Origin: Sclerodactyla briareus
Taxonomy: Eukaryota; Echinodermata; Holothuroidea; Dendrochirotida; Sclerodactylidae
Assembly (NCBI GenBank): GCA_026419785.1
Contig: JAODTK010005110.1
Coordinates: 124,001 to 188,000, forward strand
DNA: 64,000 nt
Direction of reading: 5' to 3'
Both the position numbers and the translations under genes were made by a program. Under the pieces are notes generated by a model. That model saw only the letters and a program-made list of their open reading frames with translations. It was not told where the DNA came from and ran no database searches. The first letter of the stretch is position 1. Every line of letters starts with the position of its first letter. Shown piece after piece: positions 7,001-33,690 of this stretch.

Positions 7001-8940
7001 GTGACACACTGCTATTACTTTGCCCACACACTCGACCGGCCTATTTCACCTTCCTCTTGAGCCCAGGTAAAGTTTTCACCAGGTATATACACCACCCACC
7101 GATCATGGCATCCCGAATTTACCATACTCTGACCAGTGCATTTTTGAGATGCAACGCGGCTGGAAGTTGACAGACATTTTTCTAACATATTGTCAGAGAG
7201 GAAATCCCATTCCACCAACGGACAGGGAATGCTCGAGACAAGAATGTGAAAGTACAGCCAAATCCGTACAAAATGTATACAGAAGTAACAGAGTCGAATG
7301 CGTATCGCATATTTTAAAGTAAGGGCAGAATCAATCCAGCATAGGAGGCTAAACCCCCAATATGGTTATGACGATAGAACAATAGGAGAACAAATGGCGG
7401 CCGTAAATTCTGGGGTCGAGTCGAAGGTGCTACCCCTCAGTGATAATCCGCGAAGAGGAAAATCAAAAAAAAAAAAAAATTGACAAGACAGTCCAGAAGG
7501 CTATGACAACTCTATCGCACCTTATTCACGTGGTATTCCATAAAGTCAAAAATGTTTGAATGTGATAATAATAAAGCATCCAGTTATTTGCAGAGGCATG
7601 GATTAGCATGCCTATAAGCTTATTACAGTGTTTTGATCGAAATGAATAGTTCGGAGTTTGTTATTCCTGCCGAAGGCAAAATGAATTTATGCGGTCACGC
7701 TCCGTGCGTGTGTGTGTGCGGTGCTGTGTGTGGCAAAGGTATCAAATTGTAACAAACCATTTTGGAGGGAATTGGGGTCGTATGAACAAGTTTTGTTCGA
7801 TGGGCGAACTACATGCTGGCGACTACTTTGACCTCATTTGACCTTTTGACCTCGTTTGACCTTTTGACCTCGTGACAATGACCTCGCTAATTTTTGTGAT
7901 GACCAGATTCGTCTTGTTGAGACAAACCAAAACGTGAATGAAGTGAATGTAATACAACACTCCTATCACGAGCTAACTCAAGAACGCAAATGTGTGAATG
8001 GTCAAAAAAGCCTAAACAATGGAATGTGTTAAAGTCGCGTTTGATCTTGCCATATTGGCAACAAAACATTTTGAAGGGATGTTGTAATGGGAAGTTTTGT
8101 TCTCTAGGCGAACTGCATGTAGTTAGCTATTGCATGGGAGTCTTGAACTTATATTTCATGTGGCCACCTGCCACTCAGCAAATGAGATGCTTGTGTCAGA
8201 ATACAATGTTTTCTTTTACATAATTGGCCTAAGACAAACTTTGACGAAACCCAGCACAGTCTACGCACACATTGAGTTTGAGCTGAGTTGGGCTTACAAC
8301 AGTAGATGAAAATCTTCAGCATCTTTAGCATTTTAGATGTCTCCAAAACCGTTCTGTTTAAAAAAAATAGTAATATTAATAATATTTCAACGTTAATTAG
8401 ACAAGAGAACAGATATCTTTTAACATCTGGCAACGACGAACGGCCCGTTTACCTAGCCCTATCGAAAAAAGGAATACGTTGTTTCGTGGAAGACTACTTA
8501 TCAGTACCAATACTGGTATAACTGGCTATACTTGAAACTGCCGACTCCTCTGCTTGTTGCCTCTACCCCCGCCCCCCCCCCCCCCTGTTGCTGTGCGGTC
8601 AGGTCAAAGCTTATTTGAGGTTCCAACAGAGTGCGATCGATGTCTGAAATAGCCTATCAATCAATACCTACCCAGGGGTCATATATGTGGAGATTCGTAG
8701 CAGCCAATATGGCAAGGAATCACTGAACAGTGTTGCGTTCTTGTTTCATTATGCAATGATATTTTCAAAATCTTTGGAGATCGGAATGACTAAGTTTTCA
8801 GGGATGCCGGTGAGATTCAGGCAATAGTCAACTTGTCCATTATACACAAGCTTCAATTTATAATTCTTGTTGGAAGTTAGAATGCAATGACAGCACTGTT
8901 CGTATAGTATAATGAACCAATCAGTAATCGTATTTTGTTC
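4035..8940. other. non-coding stretch with scattered simple repeats
   Basis: No supported gene. Contents: a pyrimidine-rich tract (about 4740-4885), a T run (5260-5286), a short direct duplication around 5504-5586 (each copy with ACCCTGGCC and ACTGAACGTGG), an A run (7467-7479), a TGACCT half-site cluster (7829-7884, listed separately) and a C run (8571-8584). The open frames here show no domain or splice context. Confidence 0.5.
7829..7884 (-). promoter_or_regulatory. cluster of six TGACCT (AGGTCA) half-sites
   Basis: Exact TGACCT copies start at 7829, 7839, 7847, 7857, 7865 and 7879, all in one orientation. The spacers are 4, 2, 4, 2 and 8 bases. AGGTCA is the canonical nuclear-receptor half-site, and direct repeats with 4- and 2-base spacing are recognised arrangements. 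A trivial 18-base tandem duplication explains the regularity equally well, and similar TGACC-rich repeats occur elsewhere in this window. Regulatory function is only a possibility. Confidence 0.3.
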
Positions 8941-8944
8941 ACAG

Positions 8945-9241
8945 TTATCATGGATGGCTAACCAGAAGCAGCGCCAGATTCAAGAGCATGGTAGAGTTAA
9001 CACGTGACTTGGACCCAAACGATGTTGTGCCCTACCTTATTGCCGAGGAAGTTTTGCTCGAGAGGGATGTAGAGAAATTAGAGGGGCGCCGAACAAGAGA
9101 GGAGAAAGTTAGAACTCTGGTCTTCACCTGCAGACTAGGGGGAAGAGGGCGTTTGATGCCCTCTAACAGTCGTTACGCCATTCGAGTGGTACGAGGGACT
9201 CATCAGCAAGTTAGAAGAAGAGGAAGCATGCCTGAAGCGAG
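8945..9241 (+). CDS. exon encoding a CARD domain (5' part of a CARD/GBP-like gene)
   Basis: An acceptor (TTTTGTTCACAG, ending 8944) precedes ATGs at 8950 and 8954; the second starts MANQKQRQIQEH. The open frame from 8988 then gives a typical CARD helix pattern: VELTRDL, then NDVVPYLI, then EEVLLERDVEKLEG, then RRTREEKVRTLV. One frame change later it continues with LQTRGKRAFDAL, and after another with TPFEWYEGLISKLEEEE. The motif with DVEKLEG, the RxxKxxxLxxxLxxRGxxAF helix and the total length of about 90 residues are CARD hallmarks. CARDs mediate homotypic adaptor binding in apoptosis and innate immunity. A donor (GTAACA) follows at 9242 and leaves one base (phase 1). The frame is broken by single-base shifts near 8987, 9128 and 9160 although the protein pattern stays intact, so sequencing error is as likely as decay. 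A caspase, adaptor or NLR CARD is equally possible from this exon alone. Confidence 0.6.
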
Positions 9242-11871
9242 GTAACAAATTGATGGAATTGAGGCGTAGCTCGTTATGAGTGACTCTGTTCAATGTTTGA
9301 TGTGGAGTCACAGTAAGCATTGGAATAGGGGAACAATTCAGTATACGCCCTCCGACAAAACAAAAGCCGTGCAACTGTCACACATCGAGCTAGTGACCTG
9401 TTGCAAACGAGGATAACATAGTACTTTTGTGAAAAGATTAGGTAGTGAAAAACAAAATTCCAACTGAGTAAAAAAGTATAGGAGTGTCCGAACATAATGA
9501 TGGTTTACCGTATGGAAATACCTACTAAAAATATCTGAGCGTAGCATCACTATCAGCTGGCGCGTAGCGTACGTGACCATTTTGAAAATAGTGTATATCA
9601 GATCGCATGAAGGCCACCTCCGGCTCCATGAAAGGCCTTATTAATTTTTCATTGGAGAAACTCGAGAATTTAGCTGACAAATGTTGGCCAAGCGCGGGTT
9701 CTGCATGGAGGCAATATGTTGTTTGAAGAAGAAAAATGATGCAGTGGAGCGCTACTACGGGCTGGCGCGGAGCCGTGGAAACTTTGGTCATTCCGAGACT
9801 GCAGATTACTGGTGTACTTTTCAATTTAGGAGCTGGGGTGAGGCTGGAATCTCCCTAGCCCTGCTAGCTGTGTTTGAGAACTGCATTCGGGCTAGGGGCG
9901 GTGATTTGTCATTGAAGGACATGTAATTGCTCGAACGCATTACCATTCGTTCACGGAGTTCCTACTTGGTATTCTCCCAAATTAGATTTGAAGACAGTTG
10001 GTACGCGTAGCGGAAACCCTATGATGTAATTTGTACATTATGAAAGTATGTTTTGTATTTGTAATTTAAATGCAATTCAGCTATGTATGGCGCGAGAGTC
10101 GAAAAGTGGCCCAAAAATAGCCTTCAGTTTTGGTTCACTTGCAATAACTCGTTCTGTGAATGAACTTCAAACCTAGAACCTAAAATCAAGGGCAAAACTG
10201 GATACCTGGGTGAGAGCAAAGAAAACTACCGGAATCCTAAAAGGTAAGTGTGTAACATACGGGCAACAGTATACAATAAACTTTCGCATTTCATCGAGAA
10301 AATTAACTCTTTTATGGGGGGAAGACTGGGGTCAGTTTCGGGAAAAAATGAAAATTGTGAGAACTTGAAAGTTGGCAAACTTTAGCTTGTTAACACAGTA
10401 ACACGGTCCACCTGGATGGATGAAGCTCATCCTAGGTATGTGGGTTCCCCCATCATGAGTACATGATCCCTATTGTTTCGAGAACAGGTCAGAGGTCACT
10501 GGGGTTAAAAGAGGTCAAAGTCTGAAAATCTTGTTAACACAATGAGTCCAGGATGCCTGGTTTGTTCAAGTTGCAAATTGGTTTGCAGCTTTCTTATGGG
10601 GAGTACAAGAACCAAATTTTAGCTTGTTAACACGATTCCTCGACCCCACCTGAATGGAGGAAGCTCATACTTGATATTGGTCTCCCCTAGTGATACATAC
10701 TCCCATCGTTTTTTGGGGTCAGATCTAAAGTCATCTGAGGTTGGAAGAGGTCAGGCTGGAAATCTTGTTAACACGATGAGTCCAGAATACCAGGTTTGAT
10801 CAGGTTGAAATTTGGTATGCAGCTTTCTTATGGGGAGTACATGATTTTAGTGTAGACCGGGTCCAGTTTGGAAAAGAAAAGGGGGATATTGTGAAAAATT
10901 GATATTGCTTGATAACAAAACCTCACCTCGATTGATGAAGTTCATTCTAGCATGTGAGTGCTCCAATTCGAGTTCTACATGATCCCCATTGTGAATTTTG
11001 TGAGCATGAGAAGTTGACAATGCTCAGCTTGATCAAGTCAGAACCAGTCAAGGAATCCTTAAGCCATCTGGCTTTTTTTTCAAATCGAAACATCTAATAC
11101 AGCAGCCGTTGTAAATATGCGGAGTAACTCACTGCTCATCAAACCTTTTAATCAAAATCGACCCCTGTCTGATCACTATTTTCATGAATTAGTGCTAGCG
11201 GACCAATCCAGCAAGGCCCTTGGTACTCTCAAAGAACAATATCTGTAGAACAGTCGCGCTTTATCCATTACCTTCATGTATGTTCACAAGATTGCAAACG
11301 TGAAAAATCAAAATTCTATTGTATTTTTGTGCCGTAACTAAGGATACGTGCCGTTTTAATCCACATACATGTTTTCTTTACATTCTGAGACATTCAATGT
11401 CAGTTTTGCAAATATTAGCCCGCCCCCCAAACCCAACCCAACCCCCCCCCCCCCCCAACCCCCCCGCCCTCGGGTTTGTGATGGATTCCTCTGGTCCATC
11501 CTTCCAAAGATCAATTGAACACCCTTCGACAGAGGCATGTAAGTTTACTGATAAAATACTGTTCTGCTGCCTCTCTTTACCTTCGTTGCTCTTCGCTCTG
11601 TAGTTTCCGTGTATTTGATGTACTATGTAGTTCGTATACCGCACTTTTTGTTTGTCGGATCGGTTTTCCTTGTCGATTTCACAACTGTTTTCTTTTTTGC
11701 TGAAAACAGGAGGACAACAACTGTAGCGCAATGAGCATATACTTTTTCATACTCAATGTAAATTTTCACTCTGTGCATGTGTAGTTGTAGCTAACTGTGG
11801 TTTGGCTAGTACTGTTGGTGCATGATTGACTCCAATGATTACATTTTCCTCTATAATATATTTGCTTGCAG
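9242..11871 (+). other. putative intron of the CARD/GBP-like gene
   Basis: It is bounded by GTAACA (9242) and TTTGCTTGCAG (ending 11871). It contains a degenerate tandem repeat (10370-10990, listed separately) and a C-rich tract (11419-11466). No P-loop or other GTPase motif was found in it. An open frame at 9681-9926 has no recognisable domain. Confidence 0.45.
10370..10990. repeat. degenerate tandem repeat, unit about 240 bp
   Basis: About two and a half copies of a unit are visible. It contains CTTGTTAACAC, GATGAAGCTCAT or a variant, GAGGTCA, ATGAGTCCAG and GCAGCTTTCTTATGGGGAG. The block with GTTTGCAGCTTTCTTATGG occurs near 10585 and near 10820. A related single copy lies at about 37140-37520, so the family is dispersed as well as tandem. 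Confidence 0.6.
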
Positions 11872-12376
11872 ATTCTGCTCCGGAAGCAGGGCCACCGGTT
11901 CCTACAAGCAGGTCAGTTCTCACAGCAGGCAATAGCCTCTCGGGAGGGCCTGCAGAGATGAGTCCAATGAACAGGGATCCTCCGCCACGCTTGTCTGCCA
12001 CTTCCAAACCACCCCCTATTCCACCAAAGATAAAATACCCCATCCGTCCCAAAAAGCCGTCGTTAGGAAATTACGGCCCGAGGAAGACTCCAATGGATAG
12101 CAACCGTGGTGATTCCTCTGGCGTCGAACCCAGTTCCTAGCGTCCCAGAATGGGCAGCAGAAATCACTACGCCGAGCGATATTACTAACAAATCGCGCAG
12201 CGACCCAGAGAAAATTAGGCAGCGTGATTCCAATGGACAGGTATTCCAAGGAGGTTACCCAGGTCAAGACGACAATCCTCATGCAAAGCCCTTGATAGCC
12301 CCATCGGATAATAGGAAATCTCAGGCTAATCTCTTACTCCAGTTAAGAATAACTGCAACACTTCTGATCCCTGTGA
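11872..12376 (+). CDS. exon part: proline-rich linker of the CARD/GBP-like gene
   Basis: The exon starts after the acceptor TTTGCTTGCAG. It needs one base from the previous exon, and the CARD exon supplies exactly one (G plus AT gives Asp), so the phases agree. The open frame runs DSAPEAGPPVPTS and continues Pro/Ser-rich with PPPRL and PPPIPPK stretches to a stop at 12138. After a frame change it stays open to about 12390. A short motif recurs: SPMNR, TPMDSNR and, in a third frame, IPMDRYS. PxxP stretches could bind SH3 domains, but this is only inference. It lies between the CARD and the helical modules and reads as a flexible linker. Confidence 0.45.
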
Positions 12377-13560
12377 AAGTTGTTCAATGAACTGAAGGAG
12401 AAATATCTCGACCCTGTAGATTTGGGGAGCTGTAGGTTTGCGGAATACCAACAGGCTAAAGGGAAAATCTTGCGGGAGTACGACGAGAAAGCGAGAGGTC
12501 CAACCAAAGAAACGGTCAGAGAAAAAGTCCGCGAGGAGATCGATAGAAATTTGGATCTGAGTGAAATCCCAGTAGCTGATTTCGCGTTCAGAGATGCTCT
12601 CGAGTCGCACCGAGATGTACTAATCAACATCGTCAACGAAGGACCATTGGATGTGGGAGTCATTGCGGAAAAATTCAAACTTGCGGATGAAGAGGTTAAA
12701 GACGAATTTCACAGTCGATGCCAAGGTATCAATCTCGCTAAGCTGGAGCAGAACACATTAATGCTACTTCAGAAGCTGGAAGAGAAGAAACAGCATTTCC
12801 TGCAGGTGAACAACACACTAGCGCACCATCGATGTGGGGGGAGTAATGCTAACAGAGAGCAGTAGCAAATGTACTCAAGGATTCTAGAAAATTGTACAAG
12901 AGAATTACTGAGATGGATCTTGCAGATAACATGAACATCACCGCCAAATTTGAAGAAATAAAAGAAAACATCTCAAGTACTCGACGAAATGCAATGGGAC
13001 CTACCAAAGTGCATGTCAGAATGAGAGCAAAGAAAGAAATGGAGCGGGACATTATTCGTCTGAAGAAAGTAATCTCGAACGAGGCTCTAACGATGGCGAT
13101 TAACATGTACCACAAGAAAACAGCTGATATAGCAGAGGAGGGACCTGTGGAGGACGCAGTGCTGGCAAAAAAGCATCGGCATGCAGTGGAAGAAACGAAG
13201 AAGTGGTTCAAGGAAAGACTGAAAGGTTTCGAAGAATTGGCTGTCAAGGACAATGAACAAATCCTAGACGATTTGACCAGAGCTCCCGAAGTACAACTAG
13301 TTGTTGTAACTACGGGAAATCTCTCTCACTGTGTAACGAACTTTCCGATAAAATCGCAAATGAGACGGGAACTGCCGCAAAACATTTGATACCTGTAATC
13401 AATCTGGAAAGTTTGAATGCTCAGGGTGACGGCTTTGCGAGACTGGACCAGCTTAAGGAGAGTTCGATGAAGCAGTATGACGACAACTTGGCTCGTGGAA
13501 CCAGCAAAGAAGCCTTCAAGATTGATGTGTGAAGAACGGATTGACCGCTGCTTGATGAAC
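12377..13560 (+). CDS. exon part: three helical modules resembling GBP C-terminal domain
   Basis: Three open frames follow one another with frame changes: 12380-12865, 12892-13389 and 13305-13533. Each begins a similar module of about 155 residues. Module 1 has AEYQQAKGKILREYDEKARG, GPTKETVR and an acidic-basic helix. It continues with ALESHRDV, NEGPLDV, EEVKDEFHSRC and LLQKLEEKKQHFLQVNN. Module 2 has AKFEEIKENI, AMGPTKVHVR, ALTMAINMYHKK, EEGPVEDAVL and EETKKWFKERLKG. Module 3 has LDQLKESSMKQYDD and ARGTSKEAFK and then breaks. The pattern AL..Y....P....L..H..E..A..F followed by L..LE.KK..F...N fits, by eye, the helical middle/C-terminal domain of guanylate-binding proteins. No P-loop (GxxxxGKS) or RD motif is visible in this exon or upstream. 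The assignment is by recall and could be another long-helix family. Confidence 0.45.
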
Positions 13561-13999
13561 ACAAGAAAATACCTTGCAGTATCTCATCTGCAACTGAAGG
13601 AGTAACTACACGATACACGTAATAACTGTAAAATAATGAATATAAGCTTGCAGGCACCCAGCCACCCAGTCTGGATTCCCCATTTAAGGACATTTGCAGA
13701 GCCACCTTTAGGACGAGAGATGGAAGAGGAAAGCAGAGTTGAATGACAGGAGCCAATTGTCGCACATGATGAGATGCCTCGTTCAAGAATTACCTGCGCG
13801 GTCAGGTTTACCCAGCGACAATTACGTTTTTACAGCTTCCATTATGATGCAACACGCACACAACTGGAGTAGCCATCCTTATGAAAGTCATCGGTATAAT
13901 CGGAGAGTTTGAGACGGGAGTTCTGGACACAGACCATTCCACAACTATGAGAATTCTGGCAACTATGTCTGGGTAGATGAGCTGAATCCTATGTTATAA
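13561..13999 (+). CDS. possible Tyr/His-rich tail of the CARD/GBP-like gene (broken)
   Basis: Downstream of module 3 the sequence still looks coding but shifts frame several times. Between about 13855 and 13990 one frame reads NWSSHPYESHRYNRR, one stop, DGSSGHRPFHNYENSG and then NYVWVDEL. It is rich in Tyr, His and Asn and unlike the intergenic DNA. It may be the C-terminal tail, followed by the microsatellite region. No domain is recognised and the end of the gene is not defined. Confidence 0.25.
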
Positions 14000-14121
14000 C
14001 TGAACGCAGTACTCAGCCAGATAAGTACTAGACTGCCAATCTTTCAGCAGCAGCTATGTGTGGTCGGGTACTCGCAAATAGTCTTCTTGGCTTAACTCAT
14101 TCAGTGGGTTGGTGTAATATA

Positions 14122-14327
14122 CATACATACATACATACATACATACATACATACATACATACATACAGACATACATACATACATACATACATACATACAT
14201 ACATACATACATACATACATACAGACATACATACATACATACATATGTTTGTCTGTCTGTCTATATATATATATATATATAGATATATATATATTATATA
14301 TATATATATATAGATATATATATATAT

Positions 14328-14365
<38 letters not shown>

Positions 14366-14480
14366 TTATATATATATATATATAATATATATATATATAT
14401 TATATATATATATATATATAATATATATATATATATTACTTAATACTTAGACAGACAGACAGATAGATAGATAGATATAG
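14122..14480. repeat. compound microsatellite (CATA)n-(TA)n-(GACA/GATA)n
   Basis: About 120 bp of ACAT repeats with a few GACA interruptions is followed by GTCT units, then about 170 bp of TA repeats with AATAT interruptions. The tract ends in GACA and GATA units. Open frames across it in both directions are low-complexity artefacts. Confidence 0.95.
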
Positions 14481-22465: not shown

Positions 22466-22800
22466 TTGGGCATTAACAGCTTCTCCTTTCTCAATGACCT
22501 CATCAGCGCCTCATCTTTATGGATTCACTGGCTCCATATCCGATGGATTAAATGCTCCTTGAGTAGTCATAATGAGCAAGTGCGTGTTGATGGTGCTACA
22601 TCAACAGAACTGTTCCACAGGGTACTGTGCTTGGTCCCCTCTGCTTTTTTTTTTTTTTTTAATGACCTGCCAACAGCCTAGCGTGTAGAGCACCCCTCTT
22701 TGCCGATGATCGTCTCTTGTACAAAGCCATCAACTCTAAGAACGACATTTGCGCATTGCAAAGAGATCTTCACAGTCTACACAGCCAGGTACAGACTGGA
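22466..22800 (+). mobile_element. LINE reverse transcriptase fragment (CR1/L2/Jockey-like)
   Basis: In shifting frames the segment gives FLNDLISASSLWIHWL (thumb-side block with WI), VDGATSTE, VPQGTVLGPL, NDLPTA and LFADDRLLYKAI, ending LQRDLHSL. VPQGTVLGPL-x-FINDLP followed by FADD is the RT core (blocks 4-5) of CR1/L2/Jockey-type non-LTR elements. FADD holds the catalytic Asp pair and is intact. A T run (22644-22661) replaces the expected LLF residues between block 4 and INDLP. Only about 110 residues remain, so it is a dead fragment. Confidence 0.8.
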
Positions 22801-26140: not shown

Positions 26141-26149
26141 ACTACTATG

Positions 26150-26720
26150 GAGCATGGCAGGCATAAATAGCGTGGGTGTGACACCCCTCAGCCAACAATA
26201 AGCCATGGACATGGCAGCATAAATAGAGTGGGTGTGACACCCCTCCAGCCAACAATAAGCCATGGACATGGCAGGAATAAATAGAGTGGGTGTGACACCC
26301 TTCCAGCCAACAATAAGCCATGGACATGGCAGGCATAAATAGAGTGGGTGTGACACCCCTCTAGCCAACAATAAGCCATGGACATGGCAGGCATAAATAG
26401 AGGGGTGTGACACCCCTCCAGCCAACAATAAGCCATGGACATGGCAGGCATAAATAGGTGGGTGTGACACCCCTCCAGCCAACAATAAGCCATGGACATG
26501 GCAGGCATAAATAGAGGGGTGTGACACCCCTCTAGCCAACAATAAGCCATGGACATGGCAGGCATAAATAGGTGGGTGTGACACCCCTCAGCCAACAATA
26601 AGCCACGGACATGGCAGGCATAAATAGGTGGGTGTGACACCCCTCCAGCCAACAATAAGCCATGGACATGGCAGGCATAAATAGAGGGGTGTGACACCCC
26701 TCCAGCCACAATAAGCCAAT
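26150..26720. repeat. 57-bp tandem array, about 10 copies
   Basis: The units run GCATAAATAG, GTGGGTGTGACACCCC, CCAGCCAACAATAAG and CCATGGACATGGCAG. Most are 57 or 58 bp and differ by one-base indels and by GAGGGG versus GGTGGG versus GAGTGGG. Each contains a near-perfect palindrome (GGGTGTGACACCC), a TATA-like CATAAATAG and the palindrome CCATGG. The minus strand is open in several frames, with a 19-residue periodic peptide (SHPxIYACHVHGLLLAG), because the unit lacks minus-strand stops and 57 is a multiple of 3. No domain, start context or splice evidence supports translation. Confidence 0.95.

Positions 26721-30647: not shown

Positions 30648-30649
<2 letters not shown>

Positions 30650-30710
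<61 letters not shown>
30650..30710 (+). repeat. poly-G tract
   Basis: About 60 bases of almost pure G, interrupted by one T. Its length in the assembly is unreliable. The poly-Gly and poly-Pro open frames are artefacts. Confidence 0.9.
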
Positions 30711-33049: not shown

Positions 33050-33690
33050 TTGGATCGATCCCTGGTCCCCGGGATCCCTGGTCCCCTGGCGCTGGTTCTG
33101 ATGCCTGAGACGTACCGGCCCGCCGGATCGCGGCGCTGGGGGGATACGGTCCCGAATTGCACTCGTCGGGGGACCTGGCCGTTCGAGGTGTAACCCACCA
33201 GTTAGGACCGGCTGGGCCGGCCCCGACTAGATTGTCGGGGGAACCCGGGTCGTCGAGGTGTAACCACACCCCGTTCGAACCGGTGGGCCGGCCCCGACCT
33301 ATCCTGTCGGGACCTCCGGGCCGTCCCGAGGTGTAAAGACACCCAGTTCGGACCCGGCTTGGGCCGGGCCCCGACCTATCCATGTCGGGACTATGGGCCG
33401 GCTTAGGTTGAACGACACCCCGTTTCGGGCCGCCAGGCTGGGCCGGGCCCCGACCTTCCTGTCGGACCACCGGGCAGTCCCGAGGTGTAAAAAACACCCC
33501 CGTTCGACCCGGCAGGGCCGGCGGCCGACTTACCAGTGCGGCCTGGACCAGGCAAAGTCGAGCCACCTCGGCCCCTCGCCCCCGCCTGGGTCGCCCCGAC
33601 CCTCACTGTCGGGACCGCCGGACCGTCTGAGGCCCCTGTAACGACACCACGTTGGGTCCCTGCACGAGGGAAATTAGGACAGCAGAGAAC
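33050..33690. repeat. GC-rich minisatellite in DIRS copy A, unit about 80 bp
   Basis: About six degenerate units carry CCGACCTATCCTGTCGGGAC, CCGGGCCGTCCCGAGGTGTAA and CACCCCGTTCG. One or two units of the same motif occur at the corresponding place in copy B (about 54440-54520), so the array probably grew inside the element. Its long open frames (for example 33030-33566) are repeat translations. Confidence 0.7.

Follow-up and report, generated by a model that had tools for sequence, protein, structure and literature searches.

A CARD exon and downstream tandem helical repeats as parts of a likely single gene with a broken reading frame in Sclerodactyla briareus

The DNA analyzed here (the window) is a stretch of 64,000 nucleotides from the holothuroid Sclerodactyla briareus (assembly GCA_026419785.1, contig JAODTK010005110.1, forward-strand positions 124,001 to 188,000), and all positions below are counted within it. 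Between 8945 and 13605 on its plus strand we found a CARD exon, a proline-rich linker, and a series of helical repeat modules. On balance, we slightly favor reading them as a single CARD-adaptor-type animal gene that is broken in the assembly and whose ancestor ran CARD, linker, and modules without a GTPase.

The CARD identity of the first exon (8945–9241, plus strand) is as good as certain from sequence comparison. Its borders are splice-like (ttcacag upstream, GCGAG/GTAACA downstream), and the open frame at 8928–9242 matched Pfam CARD (PF00619) with 25.6 bits (E 1.3e-5, profile positions 9–56 of 85), exceeding the curated cut-off of 23.9 bits in a single frame. The remaining half of the domain was found within this exon as well, in different frames. 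When pieces from several frames were combined, with an X at each break, the match reached 45.6 bits (E 7e-12, profile positions 9–84 of 85), as compared to 26.5 bits for a trimmed single-frame version in the same run; the pieces were picked by eye among the frames, a choice that could add a few bits but hardly 19. Searched against the PDB, the combined pieces matched RAIDD best (E 5e-5), followed by CED-3 (0.011) and CARD8 (0.04), and the single-frame piece returned no natural CARD at E up to 10, a designed protein (E 1.2) being its sole match. The probable start ATG and the CARD N-terminus lie, by translation, at 8954–8989 (plus strand) in a frame that differs from that of the next piece; they fall within the CED-3 alignment and outside the Pfam CARD match. 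Within a long three-frame Pfam scan the CARD stretch scored 20.3 bits, below the cut-off, and tblastn found no second CARD copy in the window at E up to 5. The CARD-like exon proposed in the initial annotation is borne out by both Pfam scores and by its borders.

This exon and the linker/module exon are likely, judging from their sequences, to be one gene. The two fit by phase because base 9241, the first of a codon, and bases 11872–11873 make up one codon, in the frame of both the last CARD piece and the linker. The putative intron between them (9242–11871, plus strand) is of GT...AG type and phase 1 on both sides, and its acceptor, ending at 11871, is good. The open frame that follows the acceptor holds the proline-rich linker (11872–12137, plus strand), a segment that the initial annotation had also predicted, and a second open frame (12067–12387, plus strand) would extend it, with a frame change or an intron (the intron options were chosen by eye) on either side. 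Neither the linker frame (11826–12137) nor the second frame matched any Pfam family. That the CARD exon belongs to one gene or fragment and the helical repeats to a neighboring one beginning at or near 11.87 kb is improbable: the 2.6 kb separating the two exons would suit such an arrangement, but the CARD exon, the proline-rich segment, and the helical modules are all on the plus strand, the splice sites are phase-compatible (a fit expected by chance in 1 of 3 cases), and no Pfam domain above its cut-off lies between the two parts, the weak matches to DUF3742 and DOCK-C2 being below theirs. The putative intron also contains, at 10376–10844, two adjoining copies of an imperfect direct repeat of ∼235 bases that are 77% identical.

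The helical modules predicted downstream in the same orientation proved to be real repeats, continuing on the plus strand to a TAA at 13603–13605. Module 1 (12377–12862, plus strand) has a GPTKE-containing helix pair and then a three-helix unit (residues 65–155 of its model), and module 2 (12853–13386, plus strand) has its parts in the same order in another frame. A partial module 3 (13320–13529, plus strand), with a GTSKEAF helix pair, resembles module 1, and the tail (13528–13605, plus strand), in a different frame again, resembles the matching part of module 1 by eye and ends in the TAA. Protein alignment shows modules 1 and 2 to be homologous (BLASTP E 3e-10, database of seven sequences; Smith-Waterman z 14.4, reached by 0 of 1000 shuffles). 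They gave no blastn match at E 1e-3 at the DNA level, and such likeness in protein alone suggests that both were maintained as coding sequence over a long time. Likeness between module 3 (frame 13257–13529) and module 1 was reached by 5 of 1000 shuffles (BLASTP 0.003); none was found to module 2 (778 of 1000). The stop-free runs in 11871–13605 measured 178, 162, and 107 codons, a top-three sum that none of 500 Markov shuffles attained, whereas 2 of the 500 equaled the longest run; the minus strand of this interval also had long stop-free runs (158, 121, and 105). No further module copy was detected in the window by tblastn (best match no better than E 2.5), and a scan of IMG/VR with the module alignment gave 514 pattern-matching stretches and no relatives, although a search of viral sequences has little bearing on an animal gene. 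Nothing in favor of coding was found at 13606–13999, the last part of the extent first given for the gene (8945–13999). An array of (ATAC)n and (TA)n lies directly past the gene, at 14117–14436.

The reading frame of this copy is broken repeatedly. Within the CARD exon it changes at ∼9118–9130 and ∼9167–9186, and probably also at ∼8984–8990, and a TAA (9164–9166) stands in the frame of the CARD's middle piece. The rise in CARD score from 26.5 to 45.6 bits once the pieces in other frames were added speaks for frame breaks in this exon. Another change, at ∼13527, falls, by eye, inside a motif common to module 1, and others lie near 12067–12137, 12300–12387, 12800–12860, and 13300–13320. The CARD breaks sit in an exon of 297 bases with little room for introns, which speaks for a broken gene. 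The two to three changes in this exon and that at ∼13527 are hard to explain otherwise than by decay or indels, and the four in the linker and between modules are ambiguous. Two points count against the reading of a decayed gene: these four could be introns, one candidate being a 50-base GT...AG stretch at 12806–12855 with phase 0 on both sides, and indels in the assembly could mimic a pseudogene. The breaks are compatible with decay as well as with assembly indels, and this copy is probably a pseudogene, most likely without a full protein product. The unbroken frame of a working gene was not found, which may itself reflect assembly error. There is a lesser though appreciable chance that the gene is intact and working, its breaks stemming from indels wrongly introduced in a draft long-read assembly together with at least one missed short intron. 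Consistent with this, three to eight frame changes, depending on the reading of the ambiguous ones, accompany only one stop; some breaks coincide, by eye, with a short run or a repeat (six G at 12836–12841, a CT repeat at ∼13320); and the likeness between the modules as proteins is still strong. However, indels explain the TAA in the CARD's middle piece only if a frame change precedes it, and several breaks appear by eye to lie away from homopolymers.

As in the initial annotation, no GTPase domain was found with these parts: the three plus-strand frames (stops as X) of 1–63002 gave no Pfam match to the GBP GTPase (PF02263). These scans used an E cut-off of 1 where they covered the CARD gene and 0.1 elsewhere, and no family passed its curated cut-off in them, the CARD included, so that a weak or split GTPase could escape; the weak matches below cut-off were to DUF3742 (0.0059), DOCK-C2 (0.12), RVT_1 (0.037), and PBP_sp32 (0.048). 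A P-loop pattern, sought in open pieces of at least 35 residues on both strands, occurred four times, always within 30.4–34.2 kb and never in 8.9–14 kb. It is quite unlikely that a CARD-GBP gene has decayed here by deletion of its GTPase exons, making the GTPase-less order damage rather than design. The gene is broken, and zebrafish Gbp3 and Gbp4 pair a CARD with a GBP part that includes the GTPase (excerpted text of PMC4932187), both of which would accord with such a loss. Yet the linker leads into the modules with no trace of a GTPase by Pfam, the helical part is repeated, and the CARD is N-terminal here as opposed to C-terminal in the zebrafish proteins as the same excerpts describe them.

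It is possible that the helical repeats originated as the middle domain of a GBP/atlastin GTPase. The predicted three-helix unit of module 1 (model residues 65–155) superposes on the atlastin middle domain, and 6 of the best 9 rows in the structure comparison of this model were RNF112 or atlastin-1, the latter a single protein represented by five entries. The alignment of module 2 to atlastin-1 was reached by 8 of 2000 shuffles, as compared to 800 of 2000 for reversed atlastin-1. The registers obtained from structure and from sequence are nearly the same: the former sets module 1 residue 65 at atlastin 353, and thus residue 71 at 359 if ungapped, and the latter sets module 2 residue 78, which aligns to module 1 residue 70, at atlastin 359. 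By hhalign the match was reached by 4 of 150 column shuffles, with the reversed profile close behind (16.8 vs 18.5).

Other results weigh against a GBP/atlastin origin. Neither Pfam GBP nor GBP_C (PF02841) matched at E up to 10 in single or combined frames, although HMMER filters discard weak matches; PDB sequence searches with module 1, module 2, and their profile returned designed bundles and unrelated proteins alone (7, 3, and 7 sequences, respectively); Foldseek gave 215 matches to the module 1 model at E up to 10 and 0 at 0.001; and the averaged two-sequence profile was equaled against atlastin-1 by 40 of 120 shuffles. The combined module frames matched just Laminin_II (0.086) and DUF7363 (0.098) in Pfam, both below cut-off, and the alignment of module 1 to atlastin-1 was reached by 1318 of 2000 shuffles. 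The module 2 model was too poor for use (mean pLDDT 45.7), and atlastin or GBP occupied 0 of 50 rows of its VIA list. We regard the likeness in fold between the three-helix unit of module 1 and the GBP/atlastin middle domain as tentative. Comparisons to GBP1 were mostly null, the alignment being reached by 195 of 2000 shuffles for module 1 and 1916 of 2000 for module 2. A lower count for module 2 against GBP1 290–592 (12 of 1000) was rejected: without the C-terminal part of GBP1 it rose to 151 of 1000, and in that comparison the reversed module 2 scored better (52 of 1000). We attribute the low count to coiled-coil composition. Also rejected was a weak hhalign match to three GBPs alone (score 16.0), which lay in another register. 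We consider it an even chance that the modules are unrelated to GBPs and atlastins and represent a lineage-specific helical repeat with a merely similar three-helix bundle; against this stand the share of atlastin-1 and RNF112 among the best structural rows, the low shuffle count of module 2 against atlastin-1, and the agreement of the registers. As compared to the three-helix middle domain of atlastin-1 and RNF112, the unit here is repeated in tandem, with no GTPase found and with weak statistical support for the likeness.

Returning to the single CARD-adaptor gene that we favor, its intact ancestor would have carried a CARD followed by a proline-rich linker and by two or more helical modules, ∼600–675 residues in all, with no GTPase. 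CARDs in general join like CARDs as helical oligomers, leading to activation of a caspase or NF-kB module. In such a protein, the CARD would pair homotypically with a CARD-bearing partner (a caspase, or a RAIDD-like or BCL10-like protein), the PxxP stretch of the linker could dock SH3-type domains, and the repeats might serve as a dimer or scaffold arm gathering CARDs, so that linker and repeats together would present the CARD and draw copies together. A GTPase-less version would need a trigger other than GTPase activity. It is unlikely that this copy yields a working adaptor. Of the CARD-tethered GBP helical scaffold first proposed, the CARD, the linker, the repeats, and the lack of a detected GTPase stand, but the GBP identity is unconfirmed and the frame is repeatedly broken. 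More speculatively, and with odds well below even, the locus may be a decayed or mis-assembled member of an invertebrate CARD-adaptor family whose oligomerizing arm is a tandem GBP/atlastin middle domain that no longer has its GTPase, which would make inflammasome-like scaffolds from a dynamin-family stalk.

Elsewhere in the window are G+C-rich islands (up to 0.62) at 15.7–18.1 kb, 29–34 kb, and 49.9–55.2 kb, where long open frames overlap one another on the two strands, a pattern that may recall pieces of DIRS-like retroelements. Seven open reading frames from the first and last islands and three from elsewhere matched no Pfam family at E 0.1. The weak reverse-transcriptase match (RVT_1, 14.2 bits, below cut-off) lies at 22582–22776. 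A minisatellite with a 57-base unit (26147–26718; ∼10 copies, 94% matches) overlaps two open frames on the minus strand (164 and 182 residues), a run of ∼62 G with few interruptions occupies 30649–30710, and G+C-rich tandem repeats of 71–77 bases are found at 33177–33521.

Relative to the CARD family (PF00619; RAIDD, CED-3, CARD8, BCL10, CARD9), the domain described here is nearly full-length by its profile match over pieces, whereas its frame is broken, and a proline-rich segment and helical repeats are attached to it. Zebrafish Gbp4 is a GBP with a C-terminal CARD, and bacterial clearance requires Asc and Gbp4 GTPase activity, according to the excerpts of PMC4932187. The pairing of a CARD with a GBP helical part would be common to Gbp3, Gbp4, and the present gene if the modules are GBP-like, but in those excerpts the GBP part is N-terminal and the CARD C-terminal, whereas our gene has its CARD at the N-terminus and showed no GTPase in the scans above. 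Among the matches listed from the open-licence literature on GBP and CARD, invertebrate or echinoderm GBP, zebrafish gbp4, and atlastin/GBP evolution, no title or abstract opening named a CARD-GBP fusion without a GTPase. With this copy broken and the link to GBPs weak, its value is that of a lead. Should there be intact relatives, a CARD carried by a GTPase-free helical stalk would separate GBP-like scaffolding from GTP hydrolysis and would provide a further CARD/GBP-like pairing besides that of zebrafish.
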